A stretch of 13,830 bases of DNA from a bacterium (GTDB lineage: Bacteria > UBP15 > UBA6099 > DSWB01). The stretch covers positions 1-13,830 of the forward strand of contig JAGUYV010000265.1 in the NCBI GenBank assembly GCA_020061125.1, read 5' to 3'. The position numbers and the translations under genes were made by a program. Positions 1 to 13,830 of this stretch are shown here, one piece after another. The notes beneath the pieces were generated by a model. The model had not been told where the DNA came from. It made no database searches and saw only the letters and a list, made by a program, of their open reading frames with translations. Position 1 is the first letter of the stretch. Each line of letters starts with the position of its first letter.

Positions 1-1666
1 CGAAGCCCCGGCCCGTGTCCTTGACCGAGAGCGCCAGGCTGCGGCCCTTGCGTTCAAGACGCACGAAAACCTCGCACGGCCCCGCGTGCCGCGCGATGTT
101 GGTGAGACTCTCTTGAAGCGCCCTGTACAAGAACAAAGCCACATGGGGGGGCAGATCCTTTGGGTGCAAGTATTCTACATGCGAATGCATGACAAATGAA
201 GACCCTTTTTTAATTTCGTTGACATAATGTTCCACGGCCGCGGACAGGCCGAACCGGTCCAGCATGACCGGGTGCAGCCCGTAGCAGATGGCGCGCAGGG
301 CGCTTGTCAGTTCCTTGAGATTATTGGAAATGATGCGGACGGTGTCCTCGGCGCCCGGTGTCGCGCGCCGCAGATTTTCCAGCTCGATGGTGGCGATAGT
401 GATCATTTCGCCCGCCTGGTCATGAATTTCCTGTGCGATGCGGCTGCGCTCGGCCTCCTGCGCGCGGATGAGGGAACGCCACAGCTTCTGGAGCGTTTCC
501 TTGCTTTTCCGCAGTTCGGCCGTGCGTTCATTCACGCGGCGTTCCATGTCGCTGTACGCCTGCCGCAGGCGCTGCTCCGTGTCTTTTAATTTGGTGATGT
601 CTGCGGCCACGCCGGTCACCGCATAAACATTTCCCTGCGCATCGAACATGGGCGCCTTAGTCGTCAAATACATGCGTTCCCTGCCGGACATGCGGGCCGG
701 TTCCTCGAATACAAGACAACAACGGCCCTGTATCACGGCGTTGTCATTACGCACCATAATTCGCAGGCTCTCTCCGGAAAACAGGTCCGCGGCGGTCTTG
801 CCAATAATGTCTTCGGCCGGCATTCCGGCTCCGGCTTCCACGGCCTGGTTCACGAACAGATAGCGGCCCTGCAGATCCTTCACGAATACCATGAGCGGCG
901 TTGCATCGAGAAAGGATTGAAGAAACTGCTTGTTCCGCTCCATGAAATCGGCCGCCTGGCGCTGCTCGGTAATGTCCTGGATCAGGCAGTAAATGAGCAG
1001 TCTGTCCGCGTTGCGCACCGGGCTGGCGAACACGCGTACCCAGCGCACGGCGCCGTCCGCCAAACGGTGCATGGCTTCGAACGGCTCCCTCCGTCCCGTC
1101 CTGGAAAGAATGGAGTGCTTTTCAAGAACCGGCGCAGGAGACAAAGATACATCTTGCACGGTCATGCGCCGCAGTTCGCTGCGGCTCCATCCGTAGAATT
1201 GTTCGGCCGCGGGGTTGGCGTCCACAAAGCTCCAGTCCGCAGGATCCACAATGACCTTGATCGCGGCGGTGTTCATGAAAATCGTGGAATAGAAATTCTT
1301 GACGCATAGCGGGTTTTCCGGGGCGTCGGATTCATGGGCGCAGTCGAGCGGGGCCGCAAGCACGGCGAACAAAGGGCGTCCATCGTCTTCATGATCCAGG
1401 GGCGACACGCGAACGCTCCATGCCGCCTCTTTGTCATCCACCCGGGCGGCAACGGCCCGGCTGCGGAATTCTCTGCCCGTAAGAACCGCTTCGCGCAATC
1501 CTTCTTCCACCACCCTGCAAAGCGCCGCGTCCATAATGTCTTCAAGGCGCGCGCGTGTTTTGCAGCCCCCGTCCGGGTCTTGGCTGCAGTAATGAACAAC
1601 CCCGTTCGAATCGCAAATCAGTGCGATTCCGGGCAGCAGAGACAGCAAAGCATGCAAATGCTTCAA
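1..1666 (-). CDS. Multi-PAS sensor histidine kinase, HisKA_3/NarL type (partial, C-terminus beyond left edge)
   Basis: This reads as a cytoplasmic sensor kinase of a two-component system; its response regulator is not in the window. The frame is open on the minus strand from just after a TGA at 1690-1688 to the left edge. In order it shows a degenerate PAS-like start (LPGIALICDSNGVV, about 1635-1595), a PAS domain with PAC end (FVDANPAAEQFYGW, then LIYCLIQDITEQ, about 1300-960), another PAS (ATPLMVFVKDLQGRYLFVNQ to VAADITKLKD, about 920-590), a coiled-coil linker, the HisKA_3 H-box (ERSRIAQEIHDQAGE, phospho-accepting His codon at 424-422), the N-box (ALQESLTNIARHA, about 121-83) and the G1 box DTGRGF at the edge. 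No membrane segment is seen, so it probably senses an internal signal such as redox state or a ligand. The start is unclear: the first in-frame ATG is at 1534, but PAS-like coding extends upstream. TTG at 1666 is a guess. ATGs at 1691 and 1686 are out of frame and soon hit stops. Function is confident, start is not. Confidence 0.88.
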   Translation of the reverse strand, partial: MKHLHALLSLLPGIALICDSNGVVHYCSQDPDGGCKTRARLEDIMDAALCRVVEEGLREAVLTGREFRSRAVAARVDDKEAAWSVRVSPLDHEDDGRPLFAVLAAPLDCAHESDAPENPLCVKNFYSTIFMNTAAIKVIVDPADWSFVDANPAAEQFYGWSRSELRRMTVQDVSLSPAPVLEKHSILSRTGRREPFEAMHRLADGAVRWVRVFASPVRNADRLLIYCLIQDITEQRQAADFMERNKQFLQSFLDATPLMVFVKDLQGRYLFVNQAVEAGAGMPAEDIIGKTAADLFSGESLRIMVRNDNAVIQGRCCLVFEEPARMSGRERMYLTTKAPMFDAQGNVYAVTGVAADITKLKDTEQRLRQAYSDMERRVNERTAELRKSKETLQKLWRSLIRAQEAERSRIAQEIHDQAGEMITIATIELENLRRATPGAEDTVRIISNNLKELTSALRAICYGLHPVMLDRFGLSAAVEHYVNEIKKGSSFVMHSHVEYLHPKDLPPHVALFLYRALQESLTNIARHAGPCEVFVRLERKGRSLALSVKDTGRGF

Positions 1667-1921: not shown

Positions 1922-3502
1922 ATGGCCAAATCCGGGTATGACCTCATTGTCATCGGGTCGGGCATGGGCGCGTTGAGCCTGGCGTCCATTATGGCCAGGG
2001 CCAGGCGCTGGCGGGTGCTGGTTCTGGAACGGCACCACGCGATCGGCGGGTACACGCACACCTTCAAGCGGCAGCGCAGCTTTCAGTGGGATGTGGGCCT
2101 GCACTATGTGGGCCAGCTCGGAAAGGGCGAAGACGGGAGGTTGCTGTTTGACTACATCACGGACGGCGCGCTGGAATGGAACAAAATGCCCGACCCGTTC
2201 GATGTGTTCTCATACCCGGACTTTTCGTTCCGCGAGCGTGAAGGCGCGGCAAATTTCAAGACAGATCTGATCGCCATGTTCCCCGATGAAAACAAGGCCA
2301 TTTCGCAATATTTCAAAGACATCAAGCGCGCGGGCGCGTGGAACATGACCCGCGTTATGGCCGGGGTTCTGCCCGGCGCGGCCGGGCGCGCGGCCAAAGG
2401 CGTCAGCCTCGCGGACCGCGGCTTCGCGCTCACCACGACAAAGGAATACACGGAACGGAATTTCAAGGATCCGAAGTTGCGCGCCCTGCTGCTCTCGCAA
2501 TGGGGCGATTACGGACTCACGCCATCGGAATGCCCGTTTGTGATGCACGCGCTGGTTGTGTCGCACTTCATGGACGGCGGCTATTATCCCGCGGGCGGCT
2601 CCGGCAGAATCGCCGATTGCGTGCGGCCCATTGTGGAAGACGCGGGCGGGCGCTTCATCACCCGCTGCGATGTGCAGGAGATTATTGTGCGCAACGGCAA
2701 GGCCGCGGGCGTGAAGGCGCGGATTAAAAAAGGCAAGGAAATCGAGGAGCGGGAATTCTTTGCTCCGGTGATCGCGTCCAACGCCGGAGAGTACAACACC
2801 TTCACGCGCCTGCTGCCCGGCGAGTATGCGGACAGGCACTGGAGCGACCCGCGGGACAACGGGCATTTCATGAGTACGGCGTGCGTGTACATCGGCCTCA
2901 AGCAAAGCCCCGAAAAGCTGGGGCTGCGCGGAGAAAACTACTGGTTCTACGGCAGCTACGACCACGACGCGAATTACTGGAAAAACGATGTGCTGAACGG
3001 CAAGCCGCTGTGCGCCATGGTCACTTTCCCCTCGATGAAAGATCCCGATGCCGAAGGACACACCGCGGATGTGCTGACCTTCGCGCCCTACGCTTGTTTC
3101 AAGCAGTGGGAGGACGCGCCATGGCGCAAACGCGCTCCGGAATATTACGAGGCCAAGGAAAAGATGGCGGACGCGCTCCTGGATTTCGTGGAATCGCGCA
3201 TGCCCGGATTCAAGGATCTGATCGCGTTCCGCGAGGCGTCCACGCCCCTGACCAATGTGCATTTCTGCGGGCATCCGCAGGGCGGGATATACGGCATGCC
3301 CGCCACGCCCGCGCGCCTGCGCAGGCAGCCGGTGAACGCCAGGACGCCCGTGAAGAATCTTTACCTCACGGGCGCGGATGCGTTCATGTGCGGCATTCTG
3401 CCCGCGGCCATGGGCGGCGTGATCGCCGCGGGCAACATCATGGGGCCGCTCGGGTTCCTCGGCGTCATGGCGCGGATGGGACTGGATTCCATGAAGCGAT
3501 AA
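1922..3502 (+). CDS. FAD-dependent oxidoreductase, retinol saturase / phytoene desaturase superfamily
   Basis: This is a 526-residue flavoenzyme resembling all-trans-retinol 13,14-reductases and CrtI-type carotenoid desaturases or isomerases. The N-terminus carries the dinucleotide-binding motif DLIVIGSGMGAL (7-18), the acidic end of the second strand VLVLER (32-37), and IGGYTHTF (41-48). It continues with FQWDVGLHYVG (54-64), close to the DVGxHY signature of the retinol saturase branch. The C-terminal FAD motif is NLYLTGADAF (479-488), followed by the Gly/Ala-rich PAAMGGVIAAGNIMG. Length and domain ends are complete. Bacterial members act on polyenes, isoprenoids or unknown lipids, and nothing nearby fixes the substrate because no crt, terpenoid or quinone gene is present. 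It is a single-gene unit with its own promoter candidate and a strong terminator, divergent from a sensor kinase. The family call is firm, the reaction unknown. Confidence 0.88.
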   Translation: MAKSGYDLIVIGSGMGALSLASIMARARRWRVLVLERHHAIGGYTHTFKRQRSFQWDVGLHYVGQLGKGEDGRLLFDYITDGALEWNKMPDPFDVFSYPDFSFREREGAANFKTDLIAMFPDENKAISQYFKDIKRAGAWNMTRVMAGVLPGAAGRAAKGVSLADRGFALTTTKEYTERNFKDPKLRALLLSQWGDYGLTPSECPFVMHALVVSHFMDGGYYPAGGSGRIADCVRPIVEDAGGRFITRCDVQEIIVRNGKAAGVKARIKKGKEIEEREFFAPVIASNAGEYNTFTRLLPGEYADRHWSDPRDNGHFMSTACVYIGLKQSPEKLGLRGENYWFYGSYDHDANYWKNDVLNGKPLCAMVTFPSMKDPDAEGHTADVLTFAPYACFKQWEDAPWRKRAPEYYEAKEKMADALLDFVESRMPGFKDLIAFREASTPLTNVHFCGHPQGGIYGMPATPARLRRQPVNARTPVKNLYLTGADAFMCGILPAAMGGVIAAGNIMGPLGFLGVMARMGLDSMKR

Positions 3503-3560: not shown

Positions 3561-4496
3561 TTACACCTGTGGTCGGGGCAGGAGTTTGGCGCGTTCGACC
3601 AGCTCGGGCACTTTTTCTTCCCACTCGATGGCCATGATGTGCGCGCCGGCCACGCCGGGGATGTTGCGGCATTCCTCGATCTGCTCCATGAGGATCTTGA
3701 TGCCTTCCTCGGTCTGCTGTCCTTTTTCCACGCCCTTGATGCGGTCAATGAGGGGTTGCGGAATGGTGATGCCGGCAACGAACTTGTTCATGTAGTTGGC
3801 CATACCGGCGCTCTTGAGCGGGGTGAGGCCGGCCATGATGTAGCACTTTTCCGTGAGGCCCATGTCCACGGCCTGCTTCATGAAGGTTTTGAAGCGGTCC
3901 ATGTCGTAGATGCACTGGGTCTGGATGAAGTTGGCGCCCGCGGCGATCTTCTTGGCGAGCCGGTGCACGCGGAACTCGAACGGGTCGCCGAACGGGTTTT
4001 CCGCGGCGCCCAGGAACATTCCGATGCCGCCCTCGACTTCCTCGCCGCTGTTGACCTTGCCCTCGTCGCGGATGGTGCGCACCACATCCAGGAGCTGGAT
4101 GGAATCCATGTCGAACACATTCTTGGCCCTGGGGTGGTTGCCGAATTTCTGGTGGTCGCCGGTGAGGCACAGCATGTTGCGGATGCCCAGGGCGTAGGCG
4201 CCGAACACATCGCTCTGCGCGGCGATACGGTTCCTGTCGCGGGTGACCATCTGCATGATCGGCTCCACGCCCTCTTTGATGAGGATGGCGCTTGTGGCGA
4301 TGGAGGACATGCGCACCACGGCGGTCTGGTTGTCGGTGACATTGGCGGCGTCCACTTTGCCTTTGATGTAGGAGGCCTTTTTCTTGATCACCTCGATGTC
4401 GGCGCCTTTGGGAGGCCCGCACTCGCAGGTCACGGCAAAGTGGCCGCCTTTGAAAACTTTTTCAAGGTTGCTGCCTGATTTCAGTTCATCACTCAT
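3561..4496 (-). CDS. metF: Methylenetetrahydrofolate reductase, MetF subunit
   Basis: MetF is an FAD-containing TIM-barrel enzyme that interconverts 5,10-methylene-THF and 5-methyl-THF, in the methyl branch of the Wood-Ljungdahl pathway and in methionine supply. The 311-residue protein has the expected MetF length. Visible active-site motifs are CECGPPKG (24-31), whose Glu25 matches the catalytic Glu28 of E. coli MetF; MLCLTGDH (108-115), whose Asp114 matches Asp120; and NFIQTQCIYD (179-188). The start chosen is the ATG at 4496, preceded at 7 nt by AGGGAG. An in-frame start 30 nt upstream lacks such a site. It is the last gene of the hdrCBA-mvhD-metVF operon, 95 nt after metV with a strong hairpin in the gap. 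Because it is linked to metV and hdr genes, it probably takes electrons through MetV and the Hdr complex rather than directly from NAD(P)H. That last step is inference. Confidence 0.95.
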   Translation of the reverse strand: MSDELKSGSNLEKVFKGGHFAVTCECGPPKGADIEVIKKKASYIKGKVDAANVTDNQTAVVRMSSIATSAILIKEGVEPIMQMVTRDRNRIAAQSDVFGAYALGIRNMLCLTGDHQKFGNHPRAKNVFDMDSIQLLDVVRTIRDEGKVNSGEEVEGGIGMFLGAAENPFGDPFEFRVHRLAKKIAAGANFIQTQCIYDMDRFKTFMKQAVDMGLTEKCYIMAGLTPLKSAGMANYMNKFVAGITIPQPLIDRIKGVEKGQQTEEGIKILMEQIEECRNIPGVAGAHIMAIEWEEKVPELVERAKLLPRPQV

Positions 4497-4529
4497 GGGT
4501 CCACTCCCTGATTGAGTTGGTTTCACCTG

Positions 4530-4591: not shown

Positions 4592-5350
4592 TCAGCCCTG
4601 GCTTTTGGCCGCGGCTTCGGCTTCTTCGGCCTTCTTTTCGAGCTCTACATTTTTCTTGTGCTCTTCCTCGGCGTCGAGCTTGGCCATGTCCTCGCGGGTG
4701 AGGTGGCGCACGCCGCCGTCCGAGCTGGTGCTCCAGTCCTTCATGGGCATGATCTTGTAAATGTTGTCGAGCTTGCCGATGGACTTGAGGCGTTCGTAGA
4801 TGAGGTGCCACACGCACTCGATGGTTTTGGGGTCCACCTCGCACATGCCTTTTTCGGAGCCGCCGCAGGGGCCGTTGAGGATGTGCTTGGAGCAGCGGGC
4901 GATGGGGCACAGGCCGCCGGTGAGGTGCAGGATGCAGTTGCCGCAGCCCGCGCAGCGCTCTTCCCACACGCCCGGCACTTTGCCCACAGCCAGGCCGCCG
5001 GTGTTCAGGCCGGGGAATATCGGCACATTGGGATACACATCCACCAGGCCCTGCACGCCCGCGCCGCAGCCGATGCACACGCACGCTTCCACTTCGGCCA
5101 TGGCGTCCTTGACCATGTCGAAATATTCCCAGTCGCACTGGCGCGAGATGGTCATTTCCTTGATTTCGATGTCGCGGTTCTGGTTGTTCTTCACGAACAT
5201 CTTGAGCGCCGAGGCCATGATGCCGACTTCTTTTTCGCCGCCGGACAGGCACACGCTCACGCAGCCGCCGCAGCCGAGGATCAGGATCTTGTTAAAGTCC
5301 TTGATCATCTCCGCGATTTCTTCCATAGGCTTCTGTTCCGCTACGATCAT
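4592..5350 (-). CDS. metV: MetV, zinc/Fe-S partner subunit of methylenetetrahydrofolate reductase
   Basis: MetV is the small Fe-S subunit that partners MetF in many anaerobes and passes electrons to its flavin. The 252-residue protein is cysteine-rich. An N-terminal half carries LGCGGCVSVC (Cys27, 30, 34) and ACVCIGCGAG (Cys90, 92, 95). It is followed by the MTHFR C-terminal-domain signature: RCAGCGNC (Cys133, 136, 139), CPIARC (148-153), NGPCGG (159-164) and Cys170. The tail after about residue 220 is a Lys/Glu/Ala helix of unknown role. The ATG at 5350 is preferred over GTG at 5359 because AAGGAG (5364-5359) lies 8 nt before the ATG and overlaps the GTG. The gene lies between mvhD and metF with gaps of 99 and 95 nt. 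Identification is firm from the motifs and gene order. Confidence 0.93.
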   Translation of the reverse strand: MIVAEQKPMEEIAEMIKDFNKILILGCGGCVSVCLSGGEKEVGIMASALKMFVKNNQNRDIEIKEMTISRQCDWEYFDMVKDAMAEVEACVCIGCGAGVQGLVDVYPNVPIFPGLNTGGLAVGKVPGVWEERCAGCGNCILHLTGGLCPIARCSKHILNGPCGGSEKGMCEVDPKTIECVWHLIYERLKSIGKLDNIYKIMPMKDWSTSSDGGVRHLTREDMAKLDAEEEHKKNVELEKKAEEAEAAAKSQG

Positions 5351-5449
5351 GGATCTCACTCCTTCTTAAGATGCAGGGGCGGTGTGTCCGCGCCGTCCCC
5401 GCGGGCTGCGGCGCGCGGCCTCCGCATTTATGGTGTGGTTCTGTTTTCC

Positions 5450-5905
5450 CTATTTTTTGTTGAGCGGGCTTGGCCCCATCTCCGTGATCCTGTCGTTCAT
5501 GATGTTGGCCACTTCCACGAAGCGGCCGAACATGGCGGCGGACAGGTTGAACATTTCGAGGCGGCGCGAGCCGACGCCGATTTCGTCGAGGATTTTCTTG
5601 GCGTAGCGCACGCGGCGCTTGGCCCAGTAGTTGCCCTCGGCGAAGTGGCAGTTGCCCTCGAGACATCCGGCCACATACACGCCGTCCGCGCCGTGCTCGA
5701 ACGCTTTGAGCAGGTGCACCACATCCACGCGCCCGGTGCACGGCACGCGGATGAGCTTGATGTTCACGGGATACTCGGTGCGCGTGCTTCCGGCCAGGTC
5801 GGCCGCGGCGTATGCGCAGAAGTTGCAGGTGAACGCCACGATTTTGGGCACGAAACCCTCGGCGGGTTTTTCCTTGACGGCAACCTGTTCCTGATGGTCC
5901 GACAT
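5450..5905 (-). CDS. mvhD: MvhD/FrhD-like [2Fe-2S] electron-transfer protein
   Basis: MvhD is a small iron-sulfur adaptor that connects an electron-donating enzyme, in methanogens the F420-non-reducing hydrogenase, to HdrA. The 151-residue protein shows the family cysteines in CNFCAYAAADLAGSTR (Cys27, Cys30), PCTGRVD (Cys56) and GCLEGNCHF (Cys81, Cys86). Five cysteines in this arrangement fit a [2Fe-2S] site. The FrhD/MvhD signature is complete and no stop or selenocysteine codon interrupts it. A GGAGGAAG ribosome binding site lies just before the ATG at 5905. It sits directly downstream of hdrA, as in Hdr-linked operons generally, so it should dock on HdrA. No hydrogenase gene is in the window, so its donor here is unknown. 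Confidence 0.94.
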   Translation of the reverse strand: MSDHQEQVAVKEKPAEGFVPKIVAFTCNFCAYAAADLAGSTRTEYPVNIKLIRVPCTGRVDVVHLLKAFEHGADGVYVAGCLEGNCHFAEGNYWAKRRVRYAKKILDEIGVGSRRLEMFNLSAAMFGRFVEVANIMNDRITEMGPSPLNKK

Positions 5906-5993: not shown

Positions 5994-8900
5994 TCACGCG
6001 GGGTCGGGTTCGAAAGTGAACAGCTCCTCGATCATGGCGCCGAGCTGAATGTCCTTGAAGCCGCACAGCTCGATGGCCTTGGCCGGGCACTGGCCCACGC
6101 AGGTGCCGCAGCCGTGGCATTCCACGGGCGAGATTTCCGCGATGCCCATGCCCACATTCTTCATCTTTGGAATGCCGTAGGGGCACACGCGCACGCAGGT
6201 CACGCAGCCCGCGCAAAGCTCCTCGTTGACTACGGCCACGCAGGCGTCGGATTCGAGTTCGTCCCTGCCCAGGATGCTGCCCGCATGGGCCGCGGCCGCG
6301 TAGGACTGCGAAATGGCTTCGTCCACGCTCATGGGCGAGTGGGCCGTGCCGCACAGGTATTCGCCTTCGGACGCGAAATCAATGGGCTGCAGTTTCACAT
6401 GGGCTTCCTGGAAGAAGCCGTCTGTGTTGAGGGTGAGCTTGAAGCCGCGGGATACATCAATGGCGTTGTCGCGCGCCACCACGCCCGAGGCCAGGGCCAC
6501 GCGGTCCGCGGGGAACTCGAACTCGCGGCCCATGGTCTGGTCGAACACGGTCACGGCCAGGCGGCCGCCGCTTTGCGCCACCACGGGCGGCTGCTCCTTG
6601 TCGAACCGCACGAAAATCACGCCCATCTCGCGCGCCTTGCGGTAATAGTCCTCGCGCATGCCGTAGGTGCGGATGTCGCGGTACATCACATAAATATTCA
6701 GATCGGGATTCTTTTCCTTGAGGTGGATGGCGTTCTTGACCGTTGCGGTGCAGCACACGCGCGAGCAGTATTTGTGCTCGTCGTTGCGCGAACCCACGCA
6801 CTGGATGAACACCAGATCCTTGAGCGACTTGGGGTCGAGTTGCCCATCGGCAACCTGCTGTTCCAGGGAGCGCACGGTGAGCACGCCGTCGCCGCCGAAT
6901 CCGTATTCGCCGTCTTTGGGCTGGTACTCGACTGCGCCCGTGGCGATGGTCACGGTGGCGTGCATGACTTCGGTCTTGTTGCCCGCAGCGTCCTGGATGA
7001 TGCTCTTGAAATGTCCGATGCCGCCGTTGATGTCCACGATTTTGCTGTTGAAGTGGACCGTGATGTTGTTGTTGGAGTTGACGGCGGCGATTTTCTGTTT
7101 GACAACCTCGCGGATGTCGCCGCCGTCCAGGGTGGTGCGCAGGTTCAGGGTTTCGCCGCCCAGGTGGTCCGACTGCTCCACGAGCACGACCTCGAAGCCC
7201 TGATCGGCCAGGTTCAGGGCCGTGCTCATGCCGCTCACGCCTCCGCCCAGCACCAGGGCGCGCTTCACGATCTTGAGCGTGGACTTGTGCAGCATTTCGA
7301 GTTTCTTGGATTTGGCCACGGCCATGCGCATCAACTCGATGGCTTTCACAGTGGCTTCTTTGGGGCGCTTGCCGTGCACCCAGGAGTCCTGGTCGCGGAT
7401 GTTGGCCATTTCGAACAGGTACGGGTTGATGCCCGTGTCGCGCAGCATTTCGCGGAACAGGGGTTCGTGCGTGCGCGGCGAGCACGCGGCGATGACCACG
7501 CGGTTGAGCTGGTTCTCTTTGACGATTTTCTTGATGCCGTCCTGCGAGTCCTGGGAGCAGGTGAAGAGCAGATTGTCGGCGTACACCACGCCGTCAATCT
7601 TTTTGGCCTCGTCGCGCACTTTTTCCACATCAATGACCGAAGCGATGTTCAGGCCGCAGTGGCACACGAATACGCCGATGCGCGGTTCCTGGCCCGAGGT
7701 GTCAATTTCCGGCGGGTATTCTTTCTTGCGCGTGAGGGTCCAGCGGGTATCGCCGAGCAGACTCATGACCTTGCCGGCCGCGCCCGTGGACTGCACCACG
7801 GACTCGGGGATGTCCTTGGGGCTTTCGAACGCGCCGCACACGAACACGCCCGGGCGGCTGGTTTCCACGGGCGAATACTCCTCGCCCTTGCAGAAGTTGT
7901 ATTTGTTGACTTCCACGCCCGCGGTTTTCGCGAGTTCCACGGCCTCGGGAGACGGCTCCAGGCCGCAGCTCAACACGGTCATGTCGAACTGTTCTTCCTT
8001 GTATTTGCCGTCCTCGATGTAGCGGATGACGCAGTTGTTGTTTGCGGGGTCTTCCTTGATGGCGGAAATCATGCTGCGCTTGTATTTCACGCCGTAGTTG
8101 TCGCGGGCGTTCTCCCAGTAGCGGTCGAAGCCCTTGCCGAAGGCGCGCAGGTCTTTGTAGAAGATGGTGACATCGAGTCCGCGCACATGCTCGGCGCCCA
8201 CGATGGCCTGCTTGGTGGCGTACATGCAGCACACGCTGGAGCAGTAGCCGCGGCCGATGCGCTCGTTGCGCGAGCCAACGCACTGGATGAAAGCGATCTT
8301 TTTGGGTTCGGCGTTGTCGCTGGGGCGCTGCACATGGCCGGCGTAGGGGCCGGAGGCGCTCAACAGGCGCTCGAACTCGAGGCTGGTGACGACATTGGGA
8401 TTGCGGCCGTAGCCGTATTCGCCCAGGAGCTTGGGGTCGGTGATTTTGTAGCCCGGGGCCAGAATGACCGCACCCACATTCAGGGTGATGTCCTTGTCCG
8501 TGTCGTTGTAGTTGATGGCGCCGGCCTTGCAGACCTTTTCGCACACGCCGCATTTTTTGCCCTGGAGCTGGCGGCAGTAATTGGGGTCAATGAAGCATTT
8601 CTTGGGCACGGCCTGTGGGAACATGAGGGAGATGGCGCGTCGCGTGTTGATGCCCTCGTTGAATTCGTTGGGGATGTTGAGCGGCTTGGTGGGGCATTTC
8701 TTGGTGCATTCCTCGCAGCCCGTGCACTTGTCGAAGTCCACATAGGTGGCTTTCTTGTGCACATGCGCGTTGAAGTTGCCGGGGCCGCCCTCGAGTTTGG
8801 TGAGATTGCTCAACACCATGATGTCAATGTTGGGGTGTCCGCCCACGGCCACCATGCGCGGGGAGAGCATGCAGGTGGAGCAGTCGTTGGTTGGGAAGGT

Positions 8901-9065
8901 TTTGTCGAGCTGCGCCATGCGGCCGCCCACGGAGGCGTCCTTGGTCACGATGGTGGTGAGGTACCCGGCGTCGGCCAGGGACAGGGCGGCTTCCAGGCCG
9001 GCGATGCCGCCGCCCACCACGAGCACGGACCCGACTTTTCCATTGCCTTTTGCGTTGTCGCTCAT
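5994..9065 (-). CDS. hdrA: Double-module HdrA: FAD/Fe-S heterodisulfide reductase subunit A family
   Basis: HdrA is the flavin- and Fe-S-containing core of Hdr complexes and the site of flavin-based electron bifurcation in methanogens. At 1023 residues this chain is clearly longer than classical single-module HdrA. Module 1 (about 10-455) has an FAD motif GGGIAG (18-23), an inserted two-cluster ferredoxin (Cys114, 117, 120, 124 and Cys164, 172, 175, 179) and the HdrA motif CX12CX3CC (Cys262, 275, 279, 280). Module 2 starts with the HdrA N-terminal domain (VFVCHCGLNI, 465-474) and continues with a second FAD motif GGGVSG (607-612), no inserted ferredoxin, a second CX10CX3CC (Cys756, 767, 771, 772) and a C-terminal 2x[4Fe-4S] ferredoxin (Cys951, 954, 957, 961; 983, 986, 989, 993). 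The ATG at 9065 has AGGTGA 5 nt upstream and is preferred over GTG at 9074. It receives electrons from MvhD and passes them to HdrBC and MetVF (inference). Confidence 0.95.
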   Translation of the reverse strand: MSDNAKGNGKVGSVLVVGGGIAGLEAALSLADAGYLTTIVTKDASVGGRMAQLDKTFPTNDCSTCMLSPRMVAVGGHPNIDIMVLSNLTKLEGGPGNFNAHVHKKATYVDFDKCTGCEECTKKCPTKPLNIPNEFNEGINTRRAISLMFPQAVPKKCFIDPNYCRQLQGKKCGVCEKVCKAGAINYNDTDKDITLNVGAVILAPGYKITDPKLLGEYGYGRNPNVVTSLEFERLLSASGPYAGHVQRPSDNAEPKKIAFIQCVGSRNERIGRGYCSSVCCMYATKQAIVGAEHVRGLDVTIFYKDLRAFGKGFDRYWENARDNYGVKYKRSMISAIKEDPANNNCVIRYIEDGKYKEEQFDMTVLSCGLEPSPEAVELAKTAGVEVNKYNFCKGEEYSPVETSRPGVFVCGAFESPKDIPESVVQSTGAAGKVMSLLGDTRWTLTRKKEYPPEIDTSGQEPRIGVFVCHCGLNIASVIDVEKVRDEAKKIDGVVYADNLLFTCSQDSQDGIKKIVKENQLNRVVIAACSPRTHEPLFREMLRDTGINPYLFEMANIRDQDSWVHGKRPKEATVKAIELMRMAVAKSKKLEMLHKSTLKIVKRALVLGGGVSGMSTALNLADQGFEVVLVEQSDHLGGETLNLRTTLDGGDIREVVKQKIAAVNSNNNITVHFNSKIVDINGGIGHFKSIIQDAAGNKTEVMHATVTIATGAVEYQPKDGEYGFGGDGVLTVRSLEQQVADGQLDPKSLKDLVFIQCVGSRNDEHKYCSRVCCTATVKNAIHLKEKNPDLNIYVMYRDIRTYGMREDYYRKAREMGVIFVRFDKEQPPVVAQSGGRLAVTVFDQTMGREFEFPADRVALASGVVARDNAIDVSRGFKLTLNTDGFFQEAHVKLQPIDFASEGEYLCGTAHSPMSVDEAISQSYAAAAHAGSILGRDELESDACVAVVNEELCAGCVTCVRVCPYGIPKMKNVGMGIAEISPVECHGCGTCVGQCPAKAIELCGFKDIQLGAMIEELFTFEPDPA

Positions 9066-9137
9066 ATCAGTCACCTGTGTGAAATTTCGAGATTTGTCCC
9101 ACCCCGGTTTTGGTTGCGCAAAAGCCGCGCGCCGTGA

Positions 9138-10046
9138 TCACGCCTCGGCCGCGGCGGGTTTCTTTTTGGTTTCCGGCTCGGGCGGAGGAGGCGCGTTCAG
9201 CGCGTCCTGAATAAGGGGCAGCGGGTCCGTGATGTGCTTGTTGAACCACGCGGTGTACTCCTGCAGCCCGAAGGCCACGCCCATGAGTTCGGTGAAGTAA
9301 TAGACCGGCATGCTGAACCCGAGTCCGGTCTGGGCCGCGGCCGCGGCCTGGCGCGTGTCCAGGTTGAGCTGGCACATGGGGCACGCGGTCACGATGCAGT
9401 TGGCGCCCGAGGCCTGCGCCGCGGCGAATATTTTGCCGATCAGGGACACGACCACATCCGTGCGCGGCACGCTCAAGCTGGCGCCGCAGCAGTCGGTTTT
9501 GCCGGACCACTTCACGGTCTTTGCGCCCAGGGCGCCGCAGATGGCATCAATCAGCGCCGGGTCCTCGGCGTCGTCCATCTGCATGATTTCGGGCGGGCGC
9601 ACCATGAGGCAGCCATAGTACGCAGCGGGTTTGAGATGGTGCAGGGACCGTTTGACATGGGACTTGATTTCGTCCAGGCCCACATCGTTCATGACCACCT
9701 CGAGCAGGTTGCGCACGGTCACGCTTCCCTTGAACTGGCCGGCGATGCCGCTGCCTTTTTTGCGGCCCTCGTGCTCTGCGTGCTTGAGGTTGGCGAAGCA
9801 CGCGGCGCAGGGGGTGACCACATCGTTGCCGCCCATCTGCTCGGCCAGGATGAGGTTGCGCAGGGCCAGGTTGTAGCCCACTTCATGGTCCGCGATGTGC
9901 GTGGCGCTCGCGCCGCAGCAGTTCCAGTCCGGAATTTCCTGAAGCTCGACGCCCAGGTATTTGCACACGGCTTTGAGGGACATGCTGAAGTCGCTGCCCG
10001 TGCTGTGCATGCTGCACCCGGGGTAGTAGGAAAAGGTCTTGGCCAT
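9138..10046 (-). CDS. hdrB: Heterodisulfide reductase subunit B (CCG-domain protein)
   Basis: HdrB carries the noncubane [4Fe-4S] clusters held by two CCG domains, which in methanogens cleave the CoM-S-S-CoB disulfide. In bacteria the same subunit serves other disulfides or simply electron transfer. Both CCG motifs are complete in this 302-residue protein: Cys11, CCG at 43-45, CAAC at 80-83; and Cys146, CCG at 186-188, CPMC at 222-225. The start at 10046 lies 2 nt after the hdrC stop, with its ribosome binding site (GGAGAGGCGAG) inside the hdrC end, which indicates translational coupling. An in-frame upstream extension to 10178 overlaps hdrC and is rejected. The C-terminal tail from about residue 283 is Pro/Lys/Ala-rich and not part of the family core. 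With no coenzyme M pathway visible, methanogen-type heterodisulfide is an unlikely substrate. Confidence 0.95.
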   Translation of the reverse strand: MAKTFSYYPGCSMHSTGSDFSMSLKAVCKYLGVELQEIPDWNCCGASATHIADHEVGYNLALRNLILAEQMGGNDVVTPCAACFANLKHAEHEGRKKGSGIAGQFKGSVTVRNLLEVVMNDVGLDEIKSHVKRSLHHLKPAAYYGCLMVRPPEIMQMDDAEDPALIDAICGALGAKTVKWSGKTDCCGASLSVPRTDVVVSLIGKIFAAAQASGANCIVTACPMCQLNLDTRQAAAAAQTGLGFSMPVYYFTELMGVAFGLQEYTAWFNKHITDPLPLIQDALNAPPPPEPETKKKPAAAEA

Positions 10047-10048
10047 GA

Positions 10049-10588
10049 TTATCTCGCCTCTCCGATGATCTTGCGCATGGCGCCTGTGTCTTTGATTTTG
10101 CCGCTGTATTTGATCTTGCCTTTTTTCATCATCTGGATGCCCAGGTCGCGGTCGCTGGTGAAATCCTTGGTGCCCCATTTGTAATGGGCCATGAGAAGCG
10201 GCTCGTTCATGCGGCCGCGCGCGCGAATAATGTTAAGGAAATGCTTGTAAAGCAGGGCCACATTCGGCTCGGCCACTTCGCGGCCTTCCTCGAGGGCCAA
10301 CTCCTTGAGCGCATCCACCACGCGGCGCGCGCTGATGTCCTGCGGGCAGCGGGTCTTGCAGGTTTCGCAGCCCACGCACAGCCAGATGAAATCGCTGGCC
10401 AGGGCTTCGTCCTTGAGGCCGAGGATCACATTGCGGATCATGTGCGCGGGGGACGAGTCCGTGATCTCGGCCACGGGGCAGCCCGCCGAGCACTTGAGGC
10501 ACTGGTAGCACGCGGAGAAGTCCACGCCGCTCTTGTCCGCGATGCGTTTTGTGAATTCCCTGTCAATTTTCACAGCCGTTTTGCTCAT
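10049..10588 (-). CDS. hdrC: Heterodisulfide reductase subunit C (ferredoxin-like)
   Basis: HdrC is the small ferredoxin-type subunit that wires HdrA to HdrB. The 179-residue protein has two [4Fe-4S] motifs of CX2CX2CX3C type: Cys27, 30, 33, 37 (ACYQCLKCSAGC) and Cys71, 74, 77, 81 (LCVGCETCKTRC). The rest is helical and basic, with no membrane segment, so this is the soluble HdrC type and not the membrane HdrE-linked kind. It is the first gene of the operon. The ATG at 10588 is the first in-frame start; a weak AAGGGA lies 11 to 12 nt upstream. A leader of about 200 nt separates it from the predicted promoter. Confidence 0.94.
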   Translation of the reverse strand: MSKTAVKIDREFTKRIADKSGVDFSACYQCLKCSAGCPVAEITDSSPAHMIRNVILGLKDEALASDFIWLCVGCETCKTRCPQDISARRVVDALKELALEEGREVAEPNVALLYKHFLNIIRARGRMNEPLLMAHYKWGTKDFTSDRDLGIQMMKKGKIKYSGKIKDTGAMRKIIGEAR

Positions 10589-10947: not shown

Positions 10948-11874
10948 TTACTTGGAAAGACCCACGCTGCGCAGCCCGAAATCCACGGCCGGAATGTGGA
11001 TTTCACCGCTGGTGGCGTATTTCAAAAACCGGCCCTTGACCTCGCTGCTTTTCACCAGCGAATCCAGGAAAAACGCGGCAAAGCCCACGACTTTGACATC
11101 CGCGCGGCCCCCGACGTCCAGGGACTCGATCACGGGCAGAAAGACCAGGCGTTTGCTGCCCGTGGCGATGTTGTCAAACTTTTCGTTGGGGTTTGCGTCA
11201 ATCCGGAAGCTGATGCCGGACTTGGTGGGGCCGACCATGTCGCCCGTTTCCGTAAGCACCCACATGCCCGCTTCGAGCCGGCCCTGGTAGCCGTTCATGA
11301 GATTGCTTTCATAGTTGCTTGCGCCGGTGCCGCCAAGCGCCAGGGGGCCGTAGTTGCTGCAAACGCCAGGAGACCCGGTCTTATCGCATGCGCCCGCGCC
11401 GAGTTTCAGCACATATACATCTCCGTACACGAAGTTTTCCTGCTCCACGCCGATGGGAATCACGCCTGTGAGCGCGCCCACCACGCCGGATGCGGCTTCG
11501 GCGTCCACGGTTACGGGTGTTGAATATTTTCTAATAATTGGCGCAAAAAGATATTGCAGATTCTCCCTGATGGTCACGCTGATGCGGCTGTAATCATCTC
11601 CAGGAAATGTCACCGAAACATCGCCGGGCGCCACTCCGAAGCGCGTAGCATAATCGAGGGCTACGGTCTGGGCCGAGTATTCATCGAACGGCAGTTCGCG
11701 CGCACCGGCCAGGGCCGCCGCATCCGCCGCGTTCTGCAAATGGGCGCGTTTGACCACCCCGCGCCCGTAGTCCACCACGAACGCCATGATCACCATGATC
11801 AATGGCAGAGCCACCACGAATATGAGCGCAACATTGCCTGTTTGTGCCTGGGAATGAGGAATTTTCTTAACCAT
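10948..11874 (-). CDS. TadG-like membrane-anchored protein (putative Flp pilus-assembly Tad domain)
   Basis: The 308-residue protein begins with a short basic segment, one transmembrane helix (about 15-35, VALIFVVALPLIMVIMAFVV) and the conserved stretch HLQNAADAAALAGAREL (45-61). Together these are the hallmark of the Tad/TadG N-terminal domain of pseudopilin-like Flp pilus-assembly proteins. The remaining 240 residues are predicted to be outside the membrane, with two cysteines (about 153 and 162) that could form a disulfide. I do not recognise this part. Its pilus role is unproven because no tadA, tadB, tadC, flp or cpaB gene is nearby. It stands alone between the hdr operon and the divergent exbB. 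The ATG at 11874 is chosen because a GGAAAGGA sequence lies about 10 nt upstream. ATG at 11886 is possible, but that purine run abuts it. Confidence 0.75.
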   Translation of the reverse strand: MVKKIPHSQAQTGNVALIFVVALPLIMVIMAFVVDYGRGVVKRAHLQNAADAAALAGARELPFDEYSAQTVALDYATRFGVAPGDVSVTFPGDDYSRISVTIRENLQYLFAPIIRKYSTPVTVDAEAASGVVGALTGVIPIGVEQENFVYGDVYVLKLGAGACDKTGSPGVCSNYGPLALGGTGASNYESNLMNGYQGRLEAGMWVLTETGDMVGPTKSGISFRIDANPNEKFDNIATGSKRLVFLPVIESLDVGGRADVKVVGFAAFFLDSLVKSSEVKGRFLKYATSGEIHIPAVDFGLRSVGLSK

Positions 11875-12227
11875 AACCGAGGACATCCTTTCCAAAGTGA
11901 TGCCCCGCCGGTTATGGCCTTATTTACCCGTTCCTGGCATAACATGAAACATGCTTTTTGAAAACTCTGCAACACCTGGCGAACGGACGCTATTGTGATG
12001 CCACTCCCCTGTAAGAGATCTTGCCAGATGTGTATCAAAACTGTGCGGCCGCCATGTGAAAATCTTTGCTAAAAGTGCAACCGGAGCCTTGTATTCCCCA
12101 TGTGAACAAGAAGACGATTTCAAAATTGCGGGATCAAATGGGAGCGATGGCTGTCATATCTGATAAAAGGAGGGAACCTGTCACATTCGACACAATGCCT
12201 ATAGTTGACTATTTTTACTTTTTTCTC

Positions 12228-12381: not shown

Positions 12382-13032
12382 ATGGGAGATTTTTTAAGGG
12401 TAGCGGTGGAAAGCTGGTATGTGATGGCGCCGCTGTTTCTTGGCTCGATCATGGCCCTGGCCATTTGCATCGAGAAGGCGTTTCACTTGAGCCGGGCGCA
12501 GGTGGACCCGGCGCGGCTCATGAACAAAATCAAGGAAGCCATCAGGCGGCGGGATTTCCGCGTGGCCGTGGGTTACTGTGAAGCTACGCCAGGCCCCGTG
12601 GCAAAGGTTCTGGCCACGGCCATCGAGTTGCGCACCCTGCCGGACGAGCAGATCAAGCAGGGGGTCGAGGAATCCGTGCTCACGGAGATTCCGCGCCTGG
12701 AGCGGTTCCTGCCAACCTTGAGCAGCATCATCACCCTGGCCCCGCTCCTGGGCCTGCTCGGCACCATCACCGGTCTCATGAAGGTGTTCTCCAAGTTCGC
12801 CTACGAGGCCAATCCCAATCCGGCCATGCTCGCAGGCGGCATCAAGGAAGCCCTGTACACAACGGCCGTGGGCCTGGCCGTGGCTATCGTATTCTTCTTT
12901 TTGCACAATGTGCTGTCCACGCGCATAGACAGCCTTATCAATCAGATGGAAAAGAGCGTGGTCGAGCTGCTGAACTTTATGCGCATGGAGGGGGCCAATG
13001 ACGCTGAACTTCAAGCGACGCAGCAGAATTAA
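12382..13032 (+). CDS. exbB: MotA/TolQ/ExbB-family proton channel protein
   Basis: ExbB/TolQ forms the pentameric inner-membrane channel that, with ExbD/TolR, turns proton flow into work on TonB or TolA. The 216-residue protein has the family layout: TM1 (about 13-30), a cytoplasmic loop, TM2 (about 112-135) with APLLGLLGTITGLMKVF (120-136), and TM3 (about 159-178) preceded by GGIKEALYTTAVGLAVAI (142-159). The threonines in TM2 and at the start of TM3 are those that line the channel in the family. Length is close to that of TolQ and ExbB. A good GGAGG lies 5 nt before the ATG. The last 35 nt overlap exbD. ExbB is preferred to TolQ because a TonB-like gene follows and no pal or tolB is seen. 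MotA-like or gliding systems cannot be fully excluded. Confidence 0.9.
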   Translation: MGDFLRVAVESWYVMAPLFLGSIMALAICIEKAFHLSRAQVDPARLMNKIKEAIRRRDFRVAVGYCEATPGPVAKVLATAIELRTLPDEQIKQGVEESVLTEIPRLERFLPTLSSIITLAPLLGLLGTITGLMKVFSKFAYEANPNPAMLAGGIKEALYTTAVGLAVAIVFFFLHNVLSTRIDSLINQMEKSVVELLNFMRMEGANDAELQATQQN

Positions 13033-13477
13033 GCCCGATATCGCGATGACGCCGCTCATAGACGCCGCGTTCATTCTGATCCTCTTCTTCGCGGTCACCA
13101 TGAATGTGTCCAAGGCGCCCACGGGTGTCACCGTGCAGACCGCGGCCGGCAAAACCGCGGAGACAAAATCCAGCAACGCCATCATCACCGTGACTGCGGC
13201 GGGGGCGCCCTGGGCGTATTTCAACGCTACGCCCGTGGCATCGCCCGGCCAGCTCACGAAACTGATCCTCGACAATAAAGAGCAGACCGGCAAGTTTCTG
13301 ATCCGGCCGGACAAGGCCGTGAAATACGAAACGCTTATGGAAATCCTGGACATCGTCCGGCTCACGGCCGGGCGGGACGCGGACATCGCCCTGGCAATGG
13401 AACTCAAGGACGGGCAGGGCGCCGCGCCCGAAAAGGAGGAAGGCAGCGATGGCCAAGAAGCCGATGAAGCCCCATAA
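12998..13477 (+). CDS. exbD: ExbD/TolR-family biopolymer transport protein
   Basis: ExbD is the single-span partner of ExbB; its membrane aspartate carries the proton. The 159-residue protein opens with a basic cytoplasmic stretch and the signature PDIAMTPLIDAAFILILFF (13-31), with Asp22 in the position of the essential Asp25 of E. coli ExbD. A periplasmic domain follows to about residue 135, ending in an acidic, low-complexity tail not typical of the family. The start lies inside the end of exbB, with GGAG 7 nt upstream (12987-12990), so translation is probably coupled. The tail overlaps the next gene by 29 nt. Confidence 0.9.
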   Translation: MTLNFKRRSRIKPDIAMTPLIDAAFILILFFAVTMNVSKAPTGVTVQTAAGKTAETKSSNAIITVTAAGAPWAYFNATPVASPGQLTKLILDNKEQTGKFLIRPDKAVKYETLMEILDIVRLTAGRDADIALAMELKDGQGAAPEKEEGSDGQEADEAP

Positions 13478-13830
13478 GCCTGCGGCGGCCGCGCCCTCAA
13501 GGCCCGCGTCCGTTCCCGAGGGTGCGGCGCGCTCGGCGTCCTACGCCATCTCCGTGGCCGTGCACATTCTGGTTCTGCTTGTCATTTTCTTTTCGGCCCA
13601 GTTCATCAAGTCCACGCCAACGCCCGAGCCGCAGAAGAAATTCGAGGAAGTCCTGCTCCAGTTCGACATGGGCGTGCCCGGCTCTGAAGGCATGTCCGTG
13701 ATGGAAACCCTGAACCCGGACGCGGATTCTCCGATTGACAACCCAGACCAGGGATCGCCGGACGCGCCGGAAACGCAGGAGCGCACGGCGCCCAGGCAGC
13801 AGAGCAGCACGCAGCCCGATCCCCGGTCCG
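13449..13830 (+). CDS. TonB-like energy transducer, N-terminal part (runs off right edge)
   Basis: The frame is open from ATG 13449 to the window end, 127 codons seen. AAGGAGGA (13433-13440) lies 8 nt upstream. The protein starts with a Lys/Pro/Ala-rich cytoplasmic segment, then one transmembrane helix (about 33-53) containing SVAVH (35-39). This Ser-x3-His pattern matches Ser16/His20 of TonB, which contacts ExbD/ExbB. A Pro/Gln/Glu/Asp-rich periplasmic linker follows, as in TonB or TolA. The diagnostic C-terminal domain is outside the window, so TonB versus TolA or a shorter adaptor is not decided. Gene order exbB-exbD-this and the overlap of 29 nt with exbD support the TonB role. Confidence 0.75.
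   Translation, partial: MAKKPMKPHKPAAAAPSRPASVPEGAARSASYAISVAVHILVLLVIFFSAQFIKSTPTPEPQKKFEEVLLQFDMGVPGSEGMSVMETLNPDADSPIDNPDQGSPDAPETQERTAPRQQSSTQPDPRS

Follow-up and report, generated by a model that had tools for sequence, protein, structure and literature searches.

Introduction

In methanogen HdrA, one ligand of the cluster in the N-terminal domain, Cys197, is supplied by the partner HdrA chain, and the archaeal HdrA3/4 and the HdrA of Moorella have earlier been read as fused heterodimers (PMC9012536). The class has since been named type II HdrA, a fusion of A6-like and A12-like HdrA (PMC12054007). Two residues, E356 and K409, serve to tell bifurcating flavins (PMC9430772). Furthermore, a GltD/Nfn-like NAD(P)H module is known from Moorella (PMC9430772) and from the archaeal type III HdrA, and two separate GltD insertions have been inferred in archaeal HdrA (PMC12054007). 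In Sporomusa, the complex fell apart on purification (PMC9430772). The energy balance of the Wood-Ljungdahl pathway is decided at the reaction of the Hdr-type methylene-THF reductases, whose actual electron partners are not yet settled.

Here, a double HdrA is analysed that is encoded in a window of 13,830 nucleotides (the whole stretch of contig JAGUYV010000265.1 under study). With a probability of roughly 0.8, it is a type II HdrA from a bacterium, in which an asymmetric version of the HdrA homodimer is covalently fused into one chain, and it serves an Hdr-type methylene-THF reductase (HdrCBA-MvhD-MetVF) as its electron hub. The double-HdrA layout as such is not new, as it is already classified as type II HdrA (PMC12054007) and as its own heterodimer (PMC9012536). 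With a single copy of each port, a one-chain pseudo-dimer should make the question of which flavin bifurcates easier to address.

Operon and window layout

Six genes in the order hdrC-hdrB-hdrA-mvhD-metV-metF form one operon on the minus strand (Pfam, NCBIfam):

10049..10588, minus strand: hdrC (TIGR03290, Fer4)
9138..10046, minus strand: hdrB, with two CCG domains (PF02754, TIGR03288)
5994..9065, minus strand: double (type II) HdrA, 1023 aa (Pfam; NCBIfam HdrA2, 945 bits; PDB HdrA; AlphaFold2 model)
5450..5905, minus strand: mvhD (PF02662, E 3.8e-47)
4592..5359, minus strand: metV (PF12225)
3561..4526, minus strand: metF (PF02219, E 5.9e-41)

Judged by its predicted products, the operon is the known 'Hdr-type' methylene-THF reductase set (MetFV-HdrABC-MvhD), and its HdrA chain is genuine and intact; both the operon type and the protein class were known before. 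The link to HdrBC and MvhD made in the initial annotation is borne out by the presence of hdrC, hdrB and mvhD in the same operon. Translation of hdrA is likelier to start at the ATG at 9065, which has an AGG-type ribosome site just 5' of it, than at the GTG at 9074.

Several other genes share the window. A 526-aa FAD oxidoreductase of the phytoene desaturase/carotenoid isomerase superfamily (1922-3502, plus strand; below the NCBIfam cut-offs) is convergent with the metF end of the operon, and a 555-aa open frame (2-1666, minus strand), by eye a PAS-domain sensor histidine kinase, runs off the contig. On the other side lie a TadE/G-like gene (10948-11895, minus strand) and, at 12382-13829 (plus strand), ExbB/TolQ and ExbD/TolR genes followed by the start of a possible TonB/TolA-like protein that also runs off the contig.

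Domain architecture of the HdrA chain

The chain is divided as follows:

7743..9041, minus strand: module 1, FAD core, aa 9-441 (VIA-align Z 53.2 to 8rwn_A; Cys conservation)
Within module 1, about aa 106-183: inserted 2[4Fe-4S] ferredoxin
Within module 1, C65: Cys197 equivalent (Cys conservation)
7272..7691, minus strand: HdrA N-terminal iron-sulfur domain, aa 459-598 (phmmer to HdrA N-domain)
6246..7271, minus strand: module 2, FAD core, aa 599-940, without inserted ferredoxin and without Cys197 equivalent (VIA-align to 5odc_A)
5997..6245, minus strand: C-terminal 2[4Fe-4S] ferredoxin, aa 941-1023 (Pfam Fer4; Cys 951-993 conserved)

The initial annotation had described two HdrA-type FAD cores in one 1023-residue chain, and phmmer, VIA-align and AlphaFold2 all agree with this; both cores are complete. 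Searched against the PDB with phmmer, the chain gives three separate HdrA blocks, corresponding to the FAD core with inserted ferredoxin (14-384), the N-domain (458-631) and the C-terminal ferredoxin (837-1015). In the AlphaFold2 model of the chain (40 homologues; pLDDT 90.6, pTM 0.91), both modules adopt the HdrA fold. In this model, core 1 (aa 9-441) matches Methanothermobacter HdrA (8rwn_A, 149-576; Z 53.2, rmsd 1.3 A, 424 residues), and aa 459-1018 align with 5odc_A 2-652 (Z 44.2, rmsd 3.4 A, 557 residues), the latter with a length difference that corresponds to the inserted ferredoxin missing from module 2. Both phmmer and the structure match thus bear out the proposed division, in which module 1 has the inserted ferredoxin and lacks the N-domain and C-terminal ferredoxin, and module 2 shows the reverse.

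The expected CX10-12CX3CC motif is present in both modules, as CX12CX3CC in core 1 (C262/275/279/280) and CX10CX3CC in core 2 (C756/767/771/772), conserved in 38-40 of 40 homologues. The N-domain cysteines C468, C470, C503 and C528 are conserved in 40/40 sequences of the homologue alignment, and the second motif of the inserted ferredoxin has the spacing CX7CX2CX3C. Seven [4Fe-4S] motif sets can be counted: two in the inserted ferredoxin, one in core 1, one in the N-domain, one in core 2 and two in the C-terminal ferredoxin. The earlier estimate of two FADs agrees with the motifs, but that of 'about six' Fe-S clusters was too low, and the motifs predict two FADs and seven [4Fe-4S] clusters per chain.

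A covalent pseudo-dimer

The N-domain is confined to module 2, and one copy each of the C-terminal and inserted ferredoxins is left in the chain. Every one of the 46 module 1 sequences that have a residue at the site carries the Cys197 equivalent as Cys or Sec, and Cys is found there in 0/48 module 2 sequences. Because the N-domain lies only on module 2 and the Cys197 equivalent only on module 1, the chain is best read as a covalent pseudo-dimer, whose two modules would complete one shared cluster within a single chain. The features that define type II HdrA are all present: two FAD domains, the split of N-domain and Cys197, E356/K409 in both halves, and halves that fall in separate clades. A TGA codon (Sec) lies exactly at the Cys197-equivalent site in 10/53 double HdrAs; these carry the motif CSIU (L052, L054, L097, L099, L112, L115, L117, L118, L122 and L128).

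Relation to QmoA and QmoB

The initial annotation likened the layout to a fused QmoA/QmoB pair, in which case the protein would be a quinone-linked, non-bifurcating electron conduit. The likeness holds for architecture, as QmoA and QmoB are also an HdrA pair with complementary Cys197 and N-domain: QmoA is without the N-domain and keeps Cys at the Cys197 site, and QmoB shows the reverse. Moreover, the genome of the window encodes qmoABC. The likeness does not extend to descent. When the two modules were placed separately among HdrA, QmoA and QmoB, as had been suggested, each fell in a group of its own, distinct from Qmo and from most of the single HdrA. QmoA and QmoB, taken from three genomes, are each other's nearest kin in a clade of their own (SH-aLRT 100), and the AU test rejects a topology that joins module 1 to QmoA (p = 0.00015). 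In addition, QmoB has a fused MvhD domain and a qmoC partner, whereas no MvhD domain is fused at the C-terminus of the window HdrA and no qmoC membrane subunit adjoins hdrA within the window operon. On the AU test, descent from a QmoA/QmoB fusion is rejected, and the Qmo reading as a whole is strongly disfavoured and very improbable.

The bacterial trees agree instead with the two separate parental clades of type II HdrA (PMC12054007). Unfused relatives (L116, L125, L061) adjoin the module 1 and module 2 groups, and a divergent module 2 subgroup is only loosely placed.

Distribution and the GltD insert

In a sample of 386 genomes taken outward from that of the window, a double HdrA match (E <= 1e-180) was found in 41, and relatives of the whole chain occur in dozens of genomes at 32-62% identity, far beyond chance. 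It had been considered that this might be a common form with only one functional flavin; the form is indeed common and already classified, but it is not single-flavin, as both modules keep their FAD motifs and E356/K409.

Double HdrAs fall into two size classes, a compact class of about 1000-1040 aa and a long class of about 1480-1540 aa. Within the module-1 inserted ferredoxin, the stretch from query residue 150 to 176 spans 27 aa in the window chain and about 484-516 in the long class. In G001, the insert contains Fer4_20 and Pyr_redox_2 domains (Pfam), comparable to the GltD/Nfn-like NAD(P)H module. No GltD insert is present at this point in the window HdrA, which accordingly is neither of the Moorella type nor a type III HdrA/HdrL. 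Single HdrAs of ~1130 aa with a similar large ferredoxin insert (L053, 4200-7631; L056, 3965-7354; L126, 1136 aa) resemble HdrL/type III HdrA.

All seven sampled genomes of the window's phylum have a double HdrA; six carry the insert and only the window copy is compact. Genes for metV/metF lie within 7.5 kb of 12/20 long and 4/33 compact genes, the latter four being those of the window and of three genomes of one other phylum. In a tree built from 778 columns that exclude the ferredoxin, the gene of the window pairs with the insert-bearing G001 as its sister (support 100), within a starred set of 14 that includes 10 insert-bearing sequences. The insert state changes at least seven times on this tree, and at least five times counting starred branches only. 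These counts give no direction of change, but the nesting favours a loss in the window lineage. Repeated gain and loss of GltD in bacterial double HdrA is mildly new, as it is not stated in the cited literature.

Compared with G001, the window HdrA is 35-44% identical at aa 151-230, against 71% at 12-60 and 88% at 231-290; in the stretch 151-230 it resembles the compact G060 form more than G001. In an AU test on 109 columns, grouping of the window sequence (G000) with G001 was not rejected (p 0.30). An assembly artefact is an unlikely cause of the missing insert because the segment is an intact compact-type ferredoxin and not a simple deletion junction. Tentatively, and at somewhat less than even odds, the module-1 inserted ferredoxin may be regarded as an exchangeable port at which a GltD cassette has repeatedly been inserted and removed. 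The window lineage would have lost its cassette, possibly by segmental recombination with a compact copy, and would thereby have switched its methylene-THF reductase away from NADH and towards some other partner, for example hydrogenase or free ferredoxin. On one contig, a few genes separate an insert-bearing double HdrA from a compact one, and the two are sister sequences (L093, G192:C93, 1776-6266 and 8671-11742). The nesting of a compact sequence among relatives that have the NADH cassette offers a natural experiment on which part sets the partner.

Electron entry

Absence of the GltD insert leaves the window chain without an NAD(P)H site of the type seen in Moorella, and its mid-potential donor or acceptor is expected to come through MvhD from a partner encoded elsewhere. 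By analogy, a hydrogenase acting via MvhD is a possible partner: on a Chloroflexi contig (L012), mvhD and then the small and large subunits of a [NiFe]-hydrogenase come after a compact double HdrA. The window genome, which also has acetyl-CoA synthase, encodes VhuA- and VhuG-like [NiFe]-hydrogenase subunits on a short contig, but these genes may serve its single HdrA instead; the hydrogenase contig is broken and the genome is 79% complete. Free ferredoxin is a possible alternative, and so is a quinone link like that proposed for Sporomusa (PMC9430772). Compact double HdrAs also occur in Wood-Ljungdahl clusters at L046, L091 and L092, with the order fhs-hdrCBA-mvhD-folD-metVF-CODH at L046 (Pfam).

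Which flavin bifurcates

The equivalents of E356/K409 are E232/K285 in module 1 and E735/K777 in module 2. Across the family, E356 is kept in 47/48 and K409 in 47/48 module 1 sequences, against 45/48 and 42/48, respectively, in module 2. Because the pair is kept in both modules, sequence alone does not single out the bifurcating flavin. Module 1 is favoured because the only remaining free-ferredoxin port sits there, although naming it the sole site is a guess. MvhD would dock at the C-terminal ferredoxin of module 2, and electrons would reach the module-1 FAD, which would bifurcate or confurcate, with the inserted low-potential ferredoxin of module 1 (free ferredoxin) on one branch and HdrC-HdrB, leading to MetVF, on the other. 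The module-2 flavin would act as a relay or as a second bifurcating site.

Two other arrangements have to be weighed. Both flavins could bifurcate in series and reach lower potentials, a tandem proposed by the respective authors for BamE (PMC9430772) and for type II HdrA (PMC12054007) and consistent with the two residue pairs here and in most relatives. This is rather unlikely, as only one inserted and one C-terminal ferredoxin are left and module 2 is more divergent, with K409 lost in 6/48. Less probable still, the flavins could be relays in a complex that does no more than connect MvhD with MetVF, which is one variant of the membrane-linked model for Sporomusa. The absence of an NAD(P)H module from the window HdrA would suit such a complex, and so would findings from Sporomusa, whose MetVF can work with reduced ferredoxin on its own and whose complex holds together loosely (PMC9430772); the bifurcation residues and the free-ferredoxin port of module 1, however, are intact.

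Comparison with known systems

BamE of the class II benzoyl-CoA reductase resembles the window HdrA by description in having two flavin sites, both with the bifurcation signature (as cited in PMC9430772), and the two are set apart by gene neighbourhood, with no bam genes around the window hdrA (Pfam and NCBIfam on the window).

The archaeal type II HdrA (A3/A4) of methane-metabolising archaea (PMC12054007, PMC9012536) shares with the window protein two TrxR/FAD cores with A6-like and A12-like parents, complementary Cys197, N-domain and C-terminal ferredoxin, and, in most members, E356 and K409 in both halves. The window HdrA differs in being bacterial and linked to metVF, and the order of the N-domain and Cys197 halves stated for HdrA3/4 is the reverse of that found here (PMC9012536).

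Moorella thermoacetica MetFV-HdrABC-MvhD has the same six genes and a double HdrA with E and K in both modules (PMC9430772), but its 162.8 kDa HdrA also contains a GltD module for NAD(P)H and one more ferredoxin, whereas the window chain is without GltD. Similarly, the 101 kDa HdrA of Sporomusa ovata is double, without GltD, and works with MetVF and MvhD (PMC9430772). Its predicted [4Fe-4S] clusters number five and only one of its modules has E/K, whereas the window HdrA has seven predicted clusters, the inserted ferredoxin and E/K in both modules.
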